DNA of 35,771 nucleotides from contig NZ_SZYE01000017.1 of NCBI RefSeq assembly GCF_005239125.1, positions 1 to 35,771 of the forward strand, written 5' to 3'. Shown here in pieces: positions 1,758 through 9,183 of this stretch. The stretch is from Cellulomonas hominis (lineage in GTDB: Bacteria; Actinomycetota; Actinomycetes; Actinomycetales; Cellulomonadaceae). The translations under genes were made by a program, and so were the position numbers. The notes under the pieces were generated by a model. That model was given only the letters and a program-made list of their open reading frames with translations, searched no databases and had not been told where the DNA came from. Within the stretch, counting starts at the first letter, position 1, and every line of letters starts with the position of its first letter.

Positions 1758-3188
1758 ATGACCGACGGCATCCCGGGGGTCGTGGCCCCCGACCCGGACC
1801 CCGCCCGCACCGACGCGTTCCTCGACGCGGTGGGCACGCTGATCGAGCGGGTCAACGAGCGCGCGCAACGGCGGAGGTCGGGGGAGGCCACCCCGATCGC
1901 CGAGGTGCTGCGCGAGCACCTCGGCACGGACCCCCGCGGCCTCGCGGTGCTGACGGAGGAGGTCGGCGCGCTCCGCGCCGTCGACGCCGACGTGGCGCTC
2001 GAGGTGGTCGTGGCCGCCGCGGGCGGTGGGCGGCTGGTCGGCGTCGGCGGCGGTGAGCAGCGCCGGCACTCGTCGTTCTCCGAGATCGTCGAGCACTCCG
2101 GCGCGTGGGCGCAGTTCCCCGTCGGCGCCGTCGACTACGTCCGCGTGCCCGTCGGACCCGACGCCGACCGCCGGGTCGTCGCGTTCGGCGTGCACCTGTT
2201 CCGGTTCGCGGACGCGCCGGTGGCCCTGCTGCAGCGGGCGGCCGCGCCCCAGCAGGGACAGGAGGCGAAGCTCGAGGCGCTGTCGCCGGACGAGGACGCG
2301 GCGGCGGCTGCTCTCGCGGCGGTCCGCGACGCGATGCTCCGCCACTCCGTGCTCCGCGGCCAGGTGGTGAGCTTCACGCCCAGCCCGTACGGCCAGTCGG
2401 CGGGTGGGGTCACGTTCCTGCCGCGGATGCAGGTCCCGGCCGAGGACGTCGTGCTGCCCGACGGCACCCTGGAGAAGGTCGAGCGCCAGGTGCTCGGTGT
2501 CGCCCGGCACCGGGATCGGTTGCGGGCCGCCGGCCAGCACCTCAAACGCGGCGTCCTGCTCTACGGACCGCCCGGCACGGGCAAGACGCACACGGTCCGC
2601 CACCTCCTCGGCGCCGACCCGGGGACCACGGCGATCGTGCTGGCTGGTCAGTCGCTCGCCCTGGTCCGGTTGGCCACCGAAACCGCGCACGCGCTGCAGC
2701 CGGCGGTGGTCGTGCTCGAGGACGTCGACCTCATCTCCGAGGACCGGACGCTGCACGCCGGTCCGCAACCGCTGCTGTTCGAGGTGCTCGACGCCATGGA
2801 CGGCCTGGGCGGCGACGCCGACGTGGCGTTCCTGCTCACCACCAACCGCGCGGACCTCCTGGAGCAGGCGCTGGTTCAGCGCCCGGGCCGGGTAGACCTC
2901 GCCGTGGAGATCCCGCTGCCCGACGACGACGCCCGGCTGCGGCTGTTCCGCCTCTACGCCGGTGGGCTCCCGCTCACGCCCGACGCGCTGCGCGAGGCGG
3001 CCGGGGCCACGGCCGGGGTGACCGCGTCGTTCGTCAAGGAGGTGATCCGGCGGGCCGTGCTGCTCGCCGCCGAGGCGGACCGCACGGTGGACGACGCAGC
3101 ACTCCGTGCGGCGGTCGCGGAGCTCACGGACGACACCCAGCGTGTCACCCGGTCGCTGCTCGGGGCCGGGCCGGGTCAGCCCGGGTAG
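1758..3188 (+). CDS. AAA+ family ATPase of unknown role
   Basis: 476 aa. Residues 1-230 are an unrecognised N-terminal domain, probably a substrate or partner adaptor. Residues about 235-400 form one AAA+ module: Walker A GPPGTGKT (270-277), Walker B VVVLEDVDLI (317-326), sensor-1 TTNR (361-364) and an arginine-finger region QRPGRVD (374-380); a helical lid follows. Walker B reads E-D rather than the usual D-E, as in BCS1-type AAA proteins. Such ATPases usually act as hexameric remodelers; the substrate here is not evident, and no protease domain or transmembrane segment is seen. The gene stands alone, has a leaderless-type promoter, and its 3' end overlaps the convergent beta-lactamase gene by 13 bases. 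The family assignment is firm, the function unknown. Confidence 0.9.
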   Translation: MTDGIPGVVAPDPDPARTDAFLDAVGTLIERVNERAQRRRSGEATPIAEVLREHLGTDPRGLAVLTEEVGALRAVDADVALEVVVAAAGGGRLVGVGGGEQRRHSSFSEIVEHSGAWAQFPVGAVDYVRVPVGPDADRRVVAFGVHLFRFADAPVALLQRAAAPQQGQEAKLEALSPDEDAAAAALAAVRDAMLRHSVLRGQVVSFTPSPYGQSAGGVTFLPRMQVPAEDVVLPDGTLEKVERQVLGVARHRDRLRAAGQHLKRGVLLYGPPGTGKTHTVRHLLGADPGTTAIVLAGQSLALVRLATETAHALQPAVVVLEDVDLISEDRTLHAGPQPLLFEVLDAMDGLGGDADVAFLLTTNRADLLEQALVQRPGRVDLAVEIPLPDDDARLRLFRLYAGGLPLTPDALREAAGATAGVTASFVKEVIRRAVLLAAEADRTVDDAALRAAVAELTDDTQRVTRSLLGAGPGQPG

Positions 3189-4144
3189 GCCGCGAGGACG
3201 GACCGCGCGGCCGCGGCGAGGACGGCGTCGTCCGGCTCGGCGGCCTCGTCCGGGTGGTCCGTCAGCACCGCCAGCACGATCGGCTGGCGCCCGGGGGGCC
3301 ACACGACCGCGATGTCGTTGCGGGAGCCGTAGCGGCCCGCCGTGCCGGTCTTGTCGCCCACGGTCCAGCCGTCCGGCGTCCCCGCGCGGATCGCGTCGGG
3401 CCCCGTCGTGCTCGCGGTGAGCCAGCCGACGTACGTCTCGCGCACTGCGGGGTCGAGCACGTCGCCGAGCGCGTACGTCGCCAGCCCCCCGGCGAGCGCG
3501 CGCGGCGTCGAGGTGCGCGCCTCCCCGCCGGGCGTGAACGCGTTGAGCTCCGGCTCGTCGGCGTCGACCCGGGTCGTGGTGTCGCCGCGCGCCGCGAGCG
3601 CCGCCTGCAGCGCGGCGGGTCCGCCCAGGTGCCGGAGCAGGACGTTGAGGGCGCCGTTGTCGCTCTCGGACACGGCGGCCGCGCCGAGCGCGGCGATCGT
3701 CAGGTCCGTGCCGGCCGCGTCACCGGTCACGGGCGCGTGACCCGCGCCGGCCACGTCGTCCGGCGCGACGGTCAACGGCTCGTCGAGCACCGACGCCGGC
3801 CGGCCCGCCAGCACCTCGCCCACGGCCAGCGCCTTGAGCGTCGACGCGTAGCCGAACCGCTCGTCGGCCCGGTACGCGACCGTGGCGCCGGTACCGGTGT
3901 CGCGGGCGTAGACGCCGACGCGGCGGCCCGTGGACTCCTCCAGCGCGGCGAGGTCGCCCGCGACCGCAGCGGTGAGGTCCGCCGGTGCCGACAGCGACGG
4001 CGTGGTGCCCGGCTCCGGGGGCGCCGTGACCCCGGTCGCCCGCGTGCCGGGTCCCCCGGGAGTGCCCGGCGAGCACGCGGCCGCGAGCACCGCCGTCAGC
4101 ACGAGCGCCGCCAGGCAGGCCGCCGCCCGGCGCTCAGCGCGCAC
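3176..4144 (-). CDS. Class A beta-lactamase (serine hydrolase), predicted lipoprotein
   Basis: 322 aa. The N-terminus (RAERRAAACLAALVLTAVL) is a signal peptide ending in a lipobox LAAAC, so Cys24 is probably lipidated and the enzyme held on the outer face of the membrane. Class A motifs are all present and correctly spaced: S101-T-L-K104 (nucleophile and general base partner), S161-D-N163, E197-P-E-L-N201 (deacylation Glu of the omega loop) and K265-T-G267. It should hydrolyse beta-lactams by acyl-enzyme chemistry; the spectrum cannot be read off. The GTG start at 4144 lies inside hspR (11-base overlap), which suggests translational coupling to the heat-shock operon. The stop overlaps the convergent AAA+ gene. 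A penicillin-sensitive or cell-wall role rather than resistance is possible. Confidence 0.93.
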   Translation of the reverse strand: MRAERRAAACLAALVLTAVLAAACSPGTPGGPGTRATGVTAPPEPGTTPSLSAPADLTAAVAGDLAALEESTGRRVGVYARDTGTGATVAYRADERFGYASTLKALAVGEVLAGRPASVLDEPLTVAPDDVAGAGHAPVTGDAAGTDLTIAALGAAAVSESDNGALNVLLRHLGGPAALQAALAARGDTTTRVDADEPELNAFTPGGEARTSTPRALAGGLATYALGDVLDPAVRETYVGWLTASTTGPDAIRAGTPDGWTVGDKTGTAGRYGSRNDIAVVWPPGRQPIVLAVLTDHPDEAAEPDDAVLAAAARSVLAAYPG

Positions 4145-4583
4145 CCGGCCGCCAGAGCACGATCGCCCCGCGGGCGCCCACGGCCCGCGGGTCCTCGGCC
4201 GGGGCGGCGCCGTCCGGGACGGCGCGGCGGCGCTGGCCGCGGCCCATCGCCACGACGTCGCCCGACGGGTGCGCCGTGAACACCCGGCGCCCCGGCTCGG
4301 CGAACGGGCGCAGGTACTCGACCTGGCGGCGCAGCCGGTCCACCTCGGACTCGAGCTCCAGGATCCGCTTGATGCCGGCCAGGTTCACGCCCTCCTCCTG
4401 GGAGAGCCGCTGCACCTCGCGCAGCGTCGCGATGTCGCGCAGGGAGTACCGCCGGCCGCGCCCGCGGGTGCGGCCGGGCTGCACCAGCCCGAGCCGGTCG
4501 TACTGCCGCAGGGTCTGCGGGTGCATGCCCGCGAGCTCGGCGGCGACCGAGATCACGTAGACCTGCGCGTCCTCCGAGACCAT
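4134..4583 (-). CDS. hspR: HspR, MerR-family heat-shock repressor
   Basis: 149 aa. The N-terminal winged helix-turn-helix (YVISVAAELAGMHPQTLRQY, then the wing GRTRGRGRRYSLRDI) is MerR-like, and residues about 60-92 form the coiled-coil dimer helix (LSQEEGVNLAGIKRILELES and onward). HspR binds HAIR inverted repeats together with DnaK as co-repressor and shuts off the dnaK operon; two HAIR sites are present upstream of dnaK (8360-8443), closing the feedback loop. Start ATG at 4583 is preceded by AGGAGGAGG. The tail beyond residue 93 (VFTAHPSGDVVAMGRGQRRR and onward) is variable in the family. It follows dnaJ after 80 bases, and its last codons overlap the beta-lactamase start. Confidence 0.96.
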   Translation of the reverse strand: MVSEDAQVYVISVAAELAGMHPQTLRQYDRLGLVQPGRTRGRGRRYSLRDIATLREVQRLSQEEGVNLAGIKRILELESEVDRLRRQVEYLRPFAEPGRRVFTAHPSGDVVAMGRGQRRRAVPDGAAPAEDPRAVGARGAIVLWRPGAR

Positions 4584-4620
4584 CCCCGCCACCTCCTCCT
4601 GTCGGTCGTCCGTGGGCGGG

Positions 4621-4636
4621 CCCGGGCGCGCCCGGG
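4621..4636. repeat. 16-bp perfect palindrome between dnaJ and hspR
   Basis: CCCGGGCGCGCCCGGG is self-complementary, with GC-rich flanks that extend the potential stem. It sits in the 80-base dnaJ-hspR gap, where it could act as an mRNA-processing or attenuation hairpin. In DNA this rich in G and C such palindromes also arise by chance. Confidence 0.4.
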
Positions 4637-4663
4637 GCGCGGTGCCCCGTGCGCGCCGACCCG

Positions 4664-5677
4664 TCAGTCCTTCGCGCGCGCCAGCAGGTCGGCCCGCGGG
4701 TCCTCGCCGGACGTCGCGATGCCGAACGCCTGCACGGCCTCCTTCGCGGCGGCGCTGAGCCGCTGCGGGACGACGACCTGCACGGTGACCAGCAGGTCCC
4801 CGGTGCCGCTCGTCGTGGTGACGCCGCGGCCCTTGACCCGCAGCGTCCGGCCCGACGGGGTGCCCGCCGGGATCTTCAGGCGCACCTGCCCGCCGTCGAG
4901 GGTCGGCACGGGCACCTCGGCGCCCAGCGCGGCCTCGTCGAAGGCGACCGGCAGGGTCACCCGGAGGTTGTTCCCGTCCAGCGCGAACACCGGGTGCGGC
5001 GTCACGCGCACGGTGACCTCGAGGTCGCCCGCGGGCGCGCCGTTCTCCCCGGGGCGGCCCTTGCCGCGCAGCCGGATCTTCTGCCCGTCCCGCACGCCGG
5101 CGGGGATGCGGGCCTTGACGGTCCGCCCCTCGACGCCGAGCGCCACGGTCGAGCCCTCCACGGCCTGCCGGAACGGCAGCGTCGTCACGGCCGCCAGGTC
5201 GGCGCCGCGCCGGGCGGTGCGGCCCTGGCCGAAGCCGCCGCCCCCGCCGAACAGGCCGCCGAGCAGGTCCTCGAACCCGCCGCCGCCCGCGCTCGCGCCG
5301 CCGGTGCCCGCGCCCTGCGGGAACCGCACGCGGGTGCCGCCCGCGCCGCCGCCGAACACGCCGCCGAACAGGTCCTCGAAGCCGCCGTTGGCGCCACCGG
5401 CGCCACCCGGGCCACCCGCGCCCGCGCGGAACCGCGCGCCGCCGGCCATCGCCCGGAGCTGGTCGTACTGCTGCCGCTGCTCCGGGTCGGAGAGGACCGC
5501 GTAGGCCTCGCCGACCTCCTTGAACTTCGCCTCGGCCGCCGCGTCCCCCGGGTTGTGGTCGGGGTGCATGGTGCGGGCGAGCTTGCGGTACGCCTTCTTG
5601 ATCGTGGCCGCGTCCGCGTCCTTGGCGACGCCGAGCACGGCGTAGAAGTCCTTCTCCAGCCAGTCCTGACCGCTCAC
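4664..5677 (-). CDS. dnaJ: DnaJ-type co-chaperone without zinc finger (type II / CbpA-like)
   Basis: 337 aa. J domain at residues 9-75 with the HPD motif (MHPDHNP) that stimulates DnaK ATPase; then a long Gly/Phe-rich linker (about 80-165) and two beta-barrel substrate-binding domains (about 170-330). No cysteine and no CxxCxGxG repeats are present, so it is a type II J-protein, unlike the zinc-finger DnaJ1 usual in mycobacterial and streptomycete dnaK operons. GTG start at 5677 is preceded by a strong GGAAGGAGG. It lies third in the operon, 127 bases after grpE, a gap holding two hairpins. The C-terminal dimerisation helix is short. Confidence 0.94.
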
Positions 5678-5700
5678 GACGCCTCCTTCCGCTCTCTCGT

Positions 5701-5736
5701 CCGGTCCACCGGGGCGTGCGTCCCGCCCCGGACCGG
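5701..5736 (-). repeat. Hairpin with a 3-nt bulge in the grpE-dnaJ gap
   Basis: Arms at 5701-5716 and 5724-5736 pair as CCGGTCC + GGGGCG against CGCCCCGGACCGG, with ACC bulged out and a 7-nt loop. It lies in the 127-base gap between grpE and dnaJ on the operon transcript. It has no T-run, so a processing or attenuation role is more likely than full termination. Confidence 0.5.
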
Positions 5737-5752
5737 GGTCGACCCCACGGCC

Positions 5753-5779
5753 GGGGCCGCGCCGTCACGACGCGGCCCC
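5753..5779 (-). repeat. Perfect 9-bp hairpin in the grpE-dnaJ gap
   Basis: GGGGCCGCG at 5753-5761 and CGCGGCCCC at 5771-5779 pair perfectly around a 9-nt loop. Together with the hairpin at 5701-5736 it could lower dnaJ, hspR and bla expression relative to dnaK and grpE. It also lies close behind the grpE stop codon, as an intrinsic attenuator would. Confidence 0.55.
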
Positions 5780-5804
5780 TGCCGGTGGGTCCTGATGATG
5801 CCCG

Positions 5805-6430
5805 TCACGCCTCCGGGTCGACGACCGCCACCCGGGCGGCGCGGATCACGCGCTCGCCCATGCGGTAGCCCGGCTGCAGCACCTGCTGCACCGTCGGCTC
5901 CGTGACGTCGGCCGAGTGCCCGTGCATGAGCGCCTCGTGCACCGTCGGGTCGAACGGCTCGCCGGCGGCGCCGTAGCGCTCGATGCCGAACCGCCCCAGG
6001 GTGCCCTCGAGCTTCTCCGCGATCGACGCGAACGGCCCGACCAGGTCGCCGTGCTGGCGCGCCAGCTCGATGTCGTCGAGGACGCTGATCAGCGCCTCGG
6101 CGACCGCCGCGACGCCCTGGTCCCGGGCGGTGAGCGCCTCGGCCTTGGACCGCTTCACGTACGCGGAGTACTGCTGCTCGAGGTTGAAGTAGTCGGCGTT
6201 CCGCCGCTGCAGCTCGTCGAGCCGCTCGGCGGCGAGCTTCTGCGCCTCGACCAGGCCCTCCAGGACCACGGCCTCCTCGGCGGCGGTCGCCGCCGCCTCG
6301 GCCTCGGCCAGGACCTGCTCCTCGGCGGTCGGCTCACGCAGCTCCCCGGTCTCCGGGTCGATGCGCCGCTTGTCGGTCACGCGCGGGGCCTCCTCCTCGG
6401 GATCGCGCCCCTGCGGGTTCGGCTGGTCCG

Positions 6431-6434
<4 letters not shown>
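5805..6434 (-). CDS. grpE: GrpE nucleotide exchange factor
   Basis: 209 aa. GrpE releases ADP from DnaK and works as a dimer. The N-terminal about 65 residues are acidic and disordered ([20 protein letters not shown]); a long helix follows (about 60-120, [27 protein letters not shown]), then the small beta domain with the family motif near [10 protein letters not shown] and [15 protein letters not shown] at the end. The GTG start at 6434 overlaps the dnaK stop by 4 bases (GTGA), so translation of the two is coupled. The length is on the long side because of the acidic N-terminal arm. Confidence 0.96.
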
Positions 6435-8293
<1,859 letters not shown>

Positions 8294-8359
8294 GTCTGTG
8301 CTCCTTCGTCGTGCTGCTGCGTGATCCGGCGCTCGGCCGCCCGGGCGGGGCGGTGGCGC

Positions 8360-8380
8360 CTTGAGCCTGCTGCACTCAAG
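8360..8380 (-). promoter_or_regulatory. HAIR element 1 (HspR operator)
   Basis: CTTGAGC-N7-ACTCAAG on the plus strand matches the HspR consensus CTTGAGT-N7-ACTCAAG with one mismatch. It lies 67 bases upstream of dnaK and overlaps the end of the candidate -10 box and the expected transcription start, a classic repressor position. Confidence 0.92.
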
Positions 8381-8407
8381 TCTGCGTCGCGGTCGGTCGT
8401 GGTGCAA
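8379..8407 (-). promoter_or_regulatory. Candidate dnaK promoter
   Basis: On the minus strand TTGCAC (8402-8407), a 17-base spacer and CAGACT (8379-8384) form a plausible sigma-70-type promoter. The -10 abuts HAIR 1 and the -35 lies 15 bases from HAIR 2, so bound HspR would cover or flank both boxes. The -10 match is modest. Confidence 0.45.
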
Positions 8408-8422
8408 CTCCGCGGCGGCGAA

Positions 8423-8443
8423 CTTGAGTCCACCCCACTCAAC
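8423..8443 (-). promoter_or_regulatory. HAIR element 2 (HspR operator)
   Basis: CTTGAGT-N7-ACTCAAC has one mismatch to the HspR consensus. Its centre is 63 bp from the centre of HAIR 1, about six helical turns, so both sites face the same side of the DNA. Confidence 0.88.
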
Positions 8444-8510
8444 TCACGCCTCACGCGAAATGTTCCCACCCTCCCCCGAGGCACCACCGGTCGCCGAGAA
8501 CGCAGAAGAC

Positions 8511-8537
8511 GCGGGGTTCGACGGGCGTGAACCCCGC
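8511..8537 (-). terminator. Terminator downstream of the GNAT gene
   Basis: GCGGGGTTC (8511-8519) and GAACCCCGC (8529-8537) form a 9-bp stem with a 9-nt loop. On the minus strand the stem is followed by a pyrimidine-rich tract (GTCTTCTGCGTTCTC). It separates the acetyltransferase gene from the dnaK promoter. Confidence 0.7.
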
Positions 8538-8589
8538 AGCTGGTGCGATCTCGATGAGACTCGACCGCGAGCCCGGGGGTGGGCCGGCG

Positions 8590-9183
8590 TCAGGCGCGAG
8601 CGGCCCGGCGCTGCTCCCACTGCTCCCGGGTGATCTCGTACCGGTAGCCGCCGAGCTCCGCACCCTCGACCGCGAGCATGTCCTCGGGGGTCGGCAGCGT
8701 CTGCGCCACCGTCATCCCCGCCTTCTCCATGACGCGCTGCGACGGGCGGTTCAGCGCCATCGTCGCGCCCCAGACGACGCGCACGTCGAGGTCGGTGAAC
8801 GCCCTGGCGAGGAGGGCCGACGACACCTCCGTCGCGTAGCCGCGACCCCAGGCGGCGCGGCGCAACCGGTAGCCGAGCTCGACCTCGTCCAGCGGGCCGT
8901 CGCGCTCGGGCCGCAGGCAGAACCACCCGAGGAACGCCCCGCCCGCCGTCTCGTACGCGGCGAACAGGCCGAACCTGCCGGCCCACCGGTCGTAGCCCGC
9001 GAGGACGCTCGGCAGGTCGCGCTCGCGGACCAGCTCCGGCGCGGTCGGCTCGCCGCCGGACAGGTAGCGCATCACCGCGGGGTCGCTGTCGAGCTCGACG
9101 AGCAGGTCGGCGTCGGACGGGGCGAACGGTCGCAGCGTCACGCGCTCGGTGCGCAGGTAGGACGTGTCCACGGCGGCCAGCAT
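8590..9183 (-). CDS. GNAT-family N-acetyltransferase, RimJ/RimL-like
   Basis: 197 aa single GNAT domain. The N-terminal strand (LRTERVTLRPFAPSDADLLV) is typical of the RimJ/RimL branch; the acetyl-CoA pyrophosphate loop is in RRAAWGRGYATEV (residues about 110-122) and the C-terminal motif is NRPSQRVMEKAGMT. Members acetylate protein N-termini, ribosomal proteins or small amines; the substrate here is unknown. The ATG at 9183 lacks a clear ribosome binding site; a GTG four codons in is an alternative. It lies 47 bases downstream of the four-CSD gene, separated by a hairpin, and ends ahead of its own terminator, so it may be its own transcription unit. Confidence 0.9.
   Translation of the reverse strand: MLAAVDTSYLRTERVTLRPFAPSDADLLVELDSDPAVMRYLSGGEPTAPELVRERDLPSVLAGYDRWAGRFGLFAAYETAGGAFLGWFCLRPERDGPLDEVELGYRLRRAAWGRGYATEVSSALLARAFTDLDVRVVWGATMALNRPSQRVMEKAGMTVAQTLPTPEDMLAVEGAELGGYRYEITREQWEQRRAARA

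Follow-up and report, generated by a model that had tools for sequence, protein, structure and literature searches.

Is a class A beta-lactamase gene (bla) that begins within the coding region of hspR expressed as a part of the HspR-controlled chaperone operon, and how did it come to be placed there? The question is raised by the window (the whole stretch of DNA that was analyzed, 35,771 nt), which is contig C88 of a 4.2-Mb genome in 407 contigs. Unless another contig is named, all coordinates refer to the window.

On the minus strand, the genes are arranged in the order dnaK-grpE-dnaJ-hspR-bla. The dnaK gene (6431..8293) was named from its sequence; its ATG is located at 8293 with the Shine-Dalgarno sequence GAAGGAG, and it is 86-99% identical to those copies in relatives that were matched in one piece. 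The grpE gene (5805..6434) overlaps dnaK by 4 nt, and the dnaJ-type gene occupies 4664..5677. The top NCBIfam matches of these two genes were GrpE and DnaJ models, respectively, all of them below the cut-offs. Because the DnaJ of this operon contains zero cysteines, it should have no zinc finger. The repressor gene hspR (4134..4583; 149 aa) exceeded the curated cut-off for membership in NF047375 (148.2 bits v. 105), and bla (3176..4144; 322 aa, with a signal sequence) exceeded that of NF033103 (254.7 bits v. 200). A convergent AAA-type ATPase gene on the plus strand (1758..3188) overlaps the 3' end of bla by 13 nt and was treated as a neighbor outside the operon. By eye, Shine-Dalgarno sequences were clear for dnaK, dnaJ, and hspR, and none was clear for bla or grpE. 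Directly upstream of dnaK and on the same strand is an acetyltransferase-like gene (8590-9183) with a weak match to BlmB (bleomycin N-acetyltransferase; 32 bits, far below the cut-off).

Predicted HspR operators and the start codon of bla

According to the available text of PMC2687793, the dnaK operon of Streptomyces coelicolor resembles the present one in four respects: it is controlled by HspR, the operator is TTGAGYN7ACTCAA, hspR is located inside the operon, and clpB is a second target. The pattern used here was TTGAGY-N7-RCTCAA, i.e. the published ACTCAA half was widened to RCTCAA. Exact matches occurred at three places in the 4.2-Mb genome, two before dnaK and one before clpB. The former are HAIR site 1 (GTTGAGT-N7-ACTCAAG; 8423..8443, minus strand) and HAIR site 2 (CTTGAGT-N7-GCTCAAG; 8360..8380, minus strand), the second of which is one base off the published ACTCAA half. 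The third exact operator (C133:3666-3684) is just upstream of clpB at C133:3801. When one mismatch was allowed, six more places were found; these were regarded as background, because a control pattern yielded five in all. A search with the consensus CTTGAGTN7ACTCAAG at up to three mismatches was discarded as too loose (16 places, compared to 51 for its control), and it missed the clpB site.

The two sites upstream of dnaK are spaced by 63 nt in 13 of the 15 loci with this operon that were compared and by 64 nt in L121; only one such site was found in L111. Between the 3' end of dnaK and the end of bla, there was no HAIR site with fewer than five mismatches. Since exact operators were found only at these two loci of the genome, the predicted HspR regulon comprises the dnaK operon, including bla, and clpB. 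HspR control of the dnaK operon, which an earlier note on this DNA had proposed in calling the dnaK promoter HAIR-controlled, is thus predicted from two exact operators upstream of the dnaK ATG. Two differences from S. coelicolor were apparent in the available text of PMC2687793: lon is an HspR target there, whereas here no exact operator occurs beyond dnaK and clpB, and no beta-lactamase cistron is mentioned in that text, in which the word "lactamase" has no occurrences.

The same note had placed the GTG of bla 11 bases inside hspR and in the same direction, and the coordinates agree. The hspR stop codon is at 4136-4134 and the GTG at 4144-4142, such that the two genes share 11 nt (4134..4144, minus strand) in different frames. 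The GTG is made up of the last bases of hspR codon 147 (GGT) and the base that follows. It is the only ATG, GTG, or TTG in the window that would leave bla with a complete signal peptide. Further in-frame GTGs do not occur until 31 and 43 nt past the hspR stop, and no other start codon was encountered when the bla frame was scanned back to its upstream stop. An identical GTG and an 11-nt overlap are present at six of the seven loci where bla directly follows hspR; in G049, where hspR is split between two frames, the overlap was judged from the hspR 3' end alone. In C. triticagri, the contig with bla carries only the 3' end of hspR, and the in-frame GTGs are located 2 nt and 173 nt past the hspR stop; the genes do not overlap at a GTG there, and a gap of more than 170 nt may precede bla.

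At the five loci with an intact hspR, 92 codons could be compared at the fourfold site, and 57 of them were invariant. Codon 147 alone among these ends in T; the other 56 end in G or C. In the relatives without bla, the GTG was missing in all eight tested, and L117 encodes the RPGAR tail likewise, but with GGC. The conservation of codon 147, together with the missing GTG in bla-less relatives, is the best evidence that this GTG is a real start and has been retained for bla, with the proviso that the linked loci share kinship and hence are not independent trials of its conservation. The gene order and the GTG were kept across the clade while synonymous sites diverged, which points to more than chance as the source of the overlap.

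Two other features of this region were noted. The stretch that encodes the hspR tail AIVLWRP (4145-4180 in the window; L114-L120) has undergone few synonymous changes across the genus, whether bla is present or absent. Structured mRNA that masks the GTG of bla as a coupling device was also considered; it was unsupported, as the predicted folds vary among six loci.

Distribution and history of the linkage

The earlier note had suggested a search for hspR-bla linkage in related genomes. A match to bla (E <= 1e-10) was found in 21 of 81 same-genus genomes. In one of them, the MAG G071, bla lies at the end of a contig and is split between two frames; linkage could not be tested there, and the genome was left out, which leaves 20. 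Linkage was called by coordinates and by flank search. In seven of the 20 (the genome of the window, G065, G029, G055, G005, G049, and G075), bla lies directly after hspR and is 64-88% identical to the window bla. The bla genes of the remaining 13 belong to the same genus and enzyme family (47-51% identical), but they have no hspR in their 1.5-kb flanks and occupy separate branches of the bla tree. In that tree of 62 proteins, the seven linked ones form one group with 100/100 support.

Outside this clade, hspR was beside none of 44 named bla loci, a count that excludes five linked loci and the contig-end copy of G071. At the level of the order, bla was present in 75 of 396 genomes at 81 places, and hspR was near it at none of the 79 places other than G000 and G029. 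At the level of the class, bla was present in 104 of 296 genomes, and hspR was near none of 110 loci; this set omits the partial matches in G728 and the second in G463, as well as nine that were in the order set or were the window itself. All of these negative results apply to flanks of at most 1.5-4 kb, shorter at contig ends. As a control, the HspR query recovered HspR in 10 of 10 distant genomes. By this survey, the hspR-bla arrangement is conserved in one Cellulomonas clade.

The insertion point could be placed from the downstream neighbor. A convergent ABC gene is found beyond bla in G071 and likewise at all but one of the seven linked loci. The ABC gene is directly after hspR in the bla-less genomes G022 and G073 and about 1.1 kb on in the bla-less G009. 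Because it adjoins hspR in relatives without bla, bla occupies the hspR/ABC-gene junction. The history of the carriers was examined with a tree of DnaK, GrpE, DnaJ, and HspR from 15 loci. In this tree, the seven bla carriers are not one group; two changes are needed, 0% of the bootstrap trees require one change, and the forks are open. Loss of bla or its transfer within the genus is therefore possible, since the chaperone tree does not unite the carriers. One of these loci, in the single-contig genome G049 (L111), has both dnaK and hspR in two frames, probably owing to assembly indels.

We consider it probable that a class A bla was captured a single time at the 3' end of hspR, in the ancestor of this Cellulomonas clade, and was kept as the fifth, HspR-controlled cistron of the HspR-autoregulated dnaK-grpE-dnaJ-hspR operon. 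What bla would gain from that position is a separate matter. With a probability only slightly short of even, bla has merely hitch-hiked: it would have been kept for the basal transcription offered by a steady chaperone operon, and HspR control would be real, yet a side effect without benefit. The confinement of the linkage to one clade, with none among the 79 order-level and 110 class-level loci, speaks for this account, as do the 13 same-genus genomes that have bla without the linkage. It entails the same anatomy as capture and retention under HspR and differs from it in benefit alone; the long-kept overlap suits either.

Transcription and translation across the operon

Strong G+C hairpins are located in the gap between grpE and dnaJ (5745..5788, minus strand) and in that between dnaJ and hspR (4618..4662, minus strand). 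The energy of the former is -34 kcal/mol or lower in every one of the 15 loci; that of the latter is -31 kcal/mol or lower in 12 of them (L118, -18; L121, -7; L117, none). Hairpin strength was compared to 40 shuffles each in nine loci. For the grpE-dnaJ hairpin, at most 1 of 40 shuffles was as strong in all nine; the same was true of the dnaJ-hspR hairpin in seven of nine (4/40 in L110 and 35/40 in L121). For the same gaps in L107-L112 and L114-L120, at the counts just given, hairpin strength is kept as the sequence changes, and the hairpins might act as attenuators of the chaperone operon or as sites of its processing. They may restrict read-through.

The junction of hspR and bla is of a different character. 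A terminator or strong hairpin was looked for there, and none was found: in six of six loci, the best hairpin was no stronger than shuffles, being equalled by 11 (L110) to 40 (L109) of 40. In the window, 37 of 40 shuffles matched it, and no 8-nt stretch has more than three Ts. Because strong hairpins precede dnaJ and hspR and none is present between hspR and bla, expression of bla is expected to follow that of hspR, and its induction may fall short of that of dnaK.

The upstream hairpins also could isolate the hspR-bla part of the operon, as would suit a bla promoter inside hspR or dnaJ and expression independent of HspR. The scarcity of synonymous changes in the AIVLWRP DNA might be read in the same way, but this DNA has changed equally little in relatives that lack bla. 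A scan of 3100-8700 detected no sigma-70-like promoter, although the scan is insensitive here and also missed the promoter of dnaK. In addition, a bla without a clear Shine-Dalgarno sequence is better suited to coupling than to an independent message. On balance, we regard a dedicated promoter as improbable.

The earlier note had put bla on the hspR transcript, with no terminator between the genes, and had coupled its translation to that of hspR. Both proposals are supported by the overlapping GTG at all but one of the seven linked loci, the junction free of terminator-like elements, the lack of a clear Shine-Dalgarno sequence, and the restriction of exact operators to dnaK and clpB; co-transcription and translational coupling of bla with hspR are likely. 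Under retention as a fifth cistron, every transcript with a full hspR would also carry bla, ribosomes ending hspR would begin bla by termination-reinitiation, and the amount of exported enzyme would follow the level of hspR. Expression of bla would be low while HspR and its corepressor DnaK occupy the operators, and it would be higher once unfolded proteins draw DnaK off.

The note's further inference, that heat raises bla, outruns the evidence, since it passes over these hairpins and the weaker response of distal genes. In S. coelicolor, all genes of the dnaK operon rise upon heat shock, the distal ones less so (PMC2687793, available text). The rise of the whole operon favors induction of bla; the weaker distal response and the strong upstream hairpins weigh against a large effect. 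Heat induction of bla is thus probable, and it may be modest. The same holds for antibiotic stress on the cell wall, which the note had included. Of 119 heat-shock genes in S. coelicolor, vancomycin induces 51, moenomycin 43, and bacitracin 27 (PMC3123327; dnaK is unnamed in the available text), and for mycobacteria one compound reportedly lowers hspR and another raises dnaK (PMC6391361). Wall stress may thus plausibly induce bla.

The enzyme and its predicted control

Class A beta-lactamases are marked by the motifs S-x-x-K, S-D-N, E-P-x-L-N, and K-T-G. All four are present in each of the seven linked copies; in the window bla, they take the forms STLK, SDN, EPELN, and KTG that the earlier note had listed. 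Like other NF033103 enzymes, the window bla has the whole catalytic domain with its active-site motifs. The solved structure nearest to it by sequence is 6wip_A ("Beta-lactamase"; E 1.2e-71). It differs from that family in its location after hspR and its predicted control, in a genome without a BlaI-type gene. It is the sole NF033103 match in its genome; elsewhere in that genome, PF13354 has two weak matches (32 and 27 bits). For the bla domain, dN/dS was 0.16-0.34 among the six close linked loci and 0.36-0.50 between those loci and C. triticagri, from which we conclude that bla is under purifying selection. That bla is a remnant, either decaying or not a beta-lactamase, as the G065 copy (no lipobox cysteine or usual stop) and the two-frame contig-end copy in the MAG G071 might suggest, is very improbable in view of these dN/dS values and of the serine, SDN, glutamate, and KTG motifs in seven of seven linked copies.

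The description of the enzyme as a lipoprotein fared less well. The lipobox cysteine is present in six of seven linked copies; however, it is gone in G065, and the window sequence, A-A-A-C, is non-canonical, as the usual leucine at -3 is absent. This part of the claim is therefore weak. The bla frame of G065 (L107) also overruns the usual stop to reach 662 codons, which is either real or an assembly effect.

Classical inducible beta-lactamases (BlaI/BlaR, AmpR) rely on sensors of either the drug itself or fragments of the wall. The present locus is similar in that it has a regulated beta-lactamase, but the predicted repressor, HspR, responds to chaperone load. A search of the genome of the window with PF03965 (BlaI, penicillinase repressor) gave no matches; in the control, 7 of 14 genomes had matches. 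The sequence predicts that bla, in this genome without a BlaI-type gene, is controlled by HspR, a repressor linked to chaperone load. If this is true, heat or protein damage would bring a rise in beta-lactam tolerance. The system is a small one, consisting of one operon, two operators, and one start codon that is seen in the linked loci and is absent in eight of eight bla-less relatives tested. Searches of the open-access literature turned up no HspR-linked beta-lactamase, in keeping with the earlier statement that none had been described. That drug defence was wired to proteostasis as an adaptation is a possibility that we put forward tentatively, as rather unlikely: selection would have made HspR and DnaK the sensor for bla, and any burden on DnaK (from heat, ethanol, mistranslation, or perhaps wall damage) would raise the exported beta-lactamase with no sensing of the drug.

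A lead was found in another family of the order. Among 252 unlinked bla loci, one (L329, in genome G125) has a HAIR site at two or fewer mismatches. On the minus strand there (~8725-5468), an exact HspR operator is followed by a clpB-type gene and then by a class A bla on the same strand. The clpB-type protein has 717 aa, with no N-domain matched, and a G+C hairpin was seen by eye between its gene and bla. Matches to bla occurred in 2 of 44 genomes of that genus, and the other one (G349) is not beside clpB. We treat the locus as a lead rather than as a second case; it hints that HspR-linked bla may have arisen more than once.
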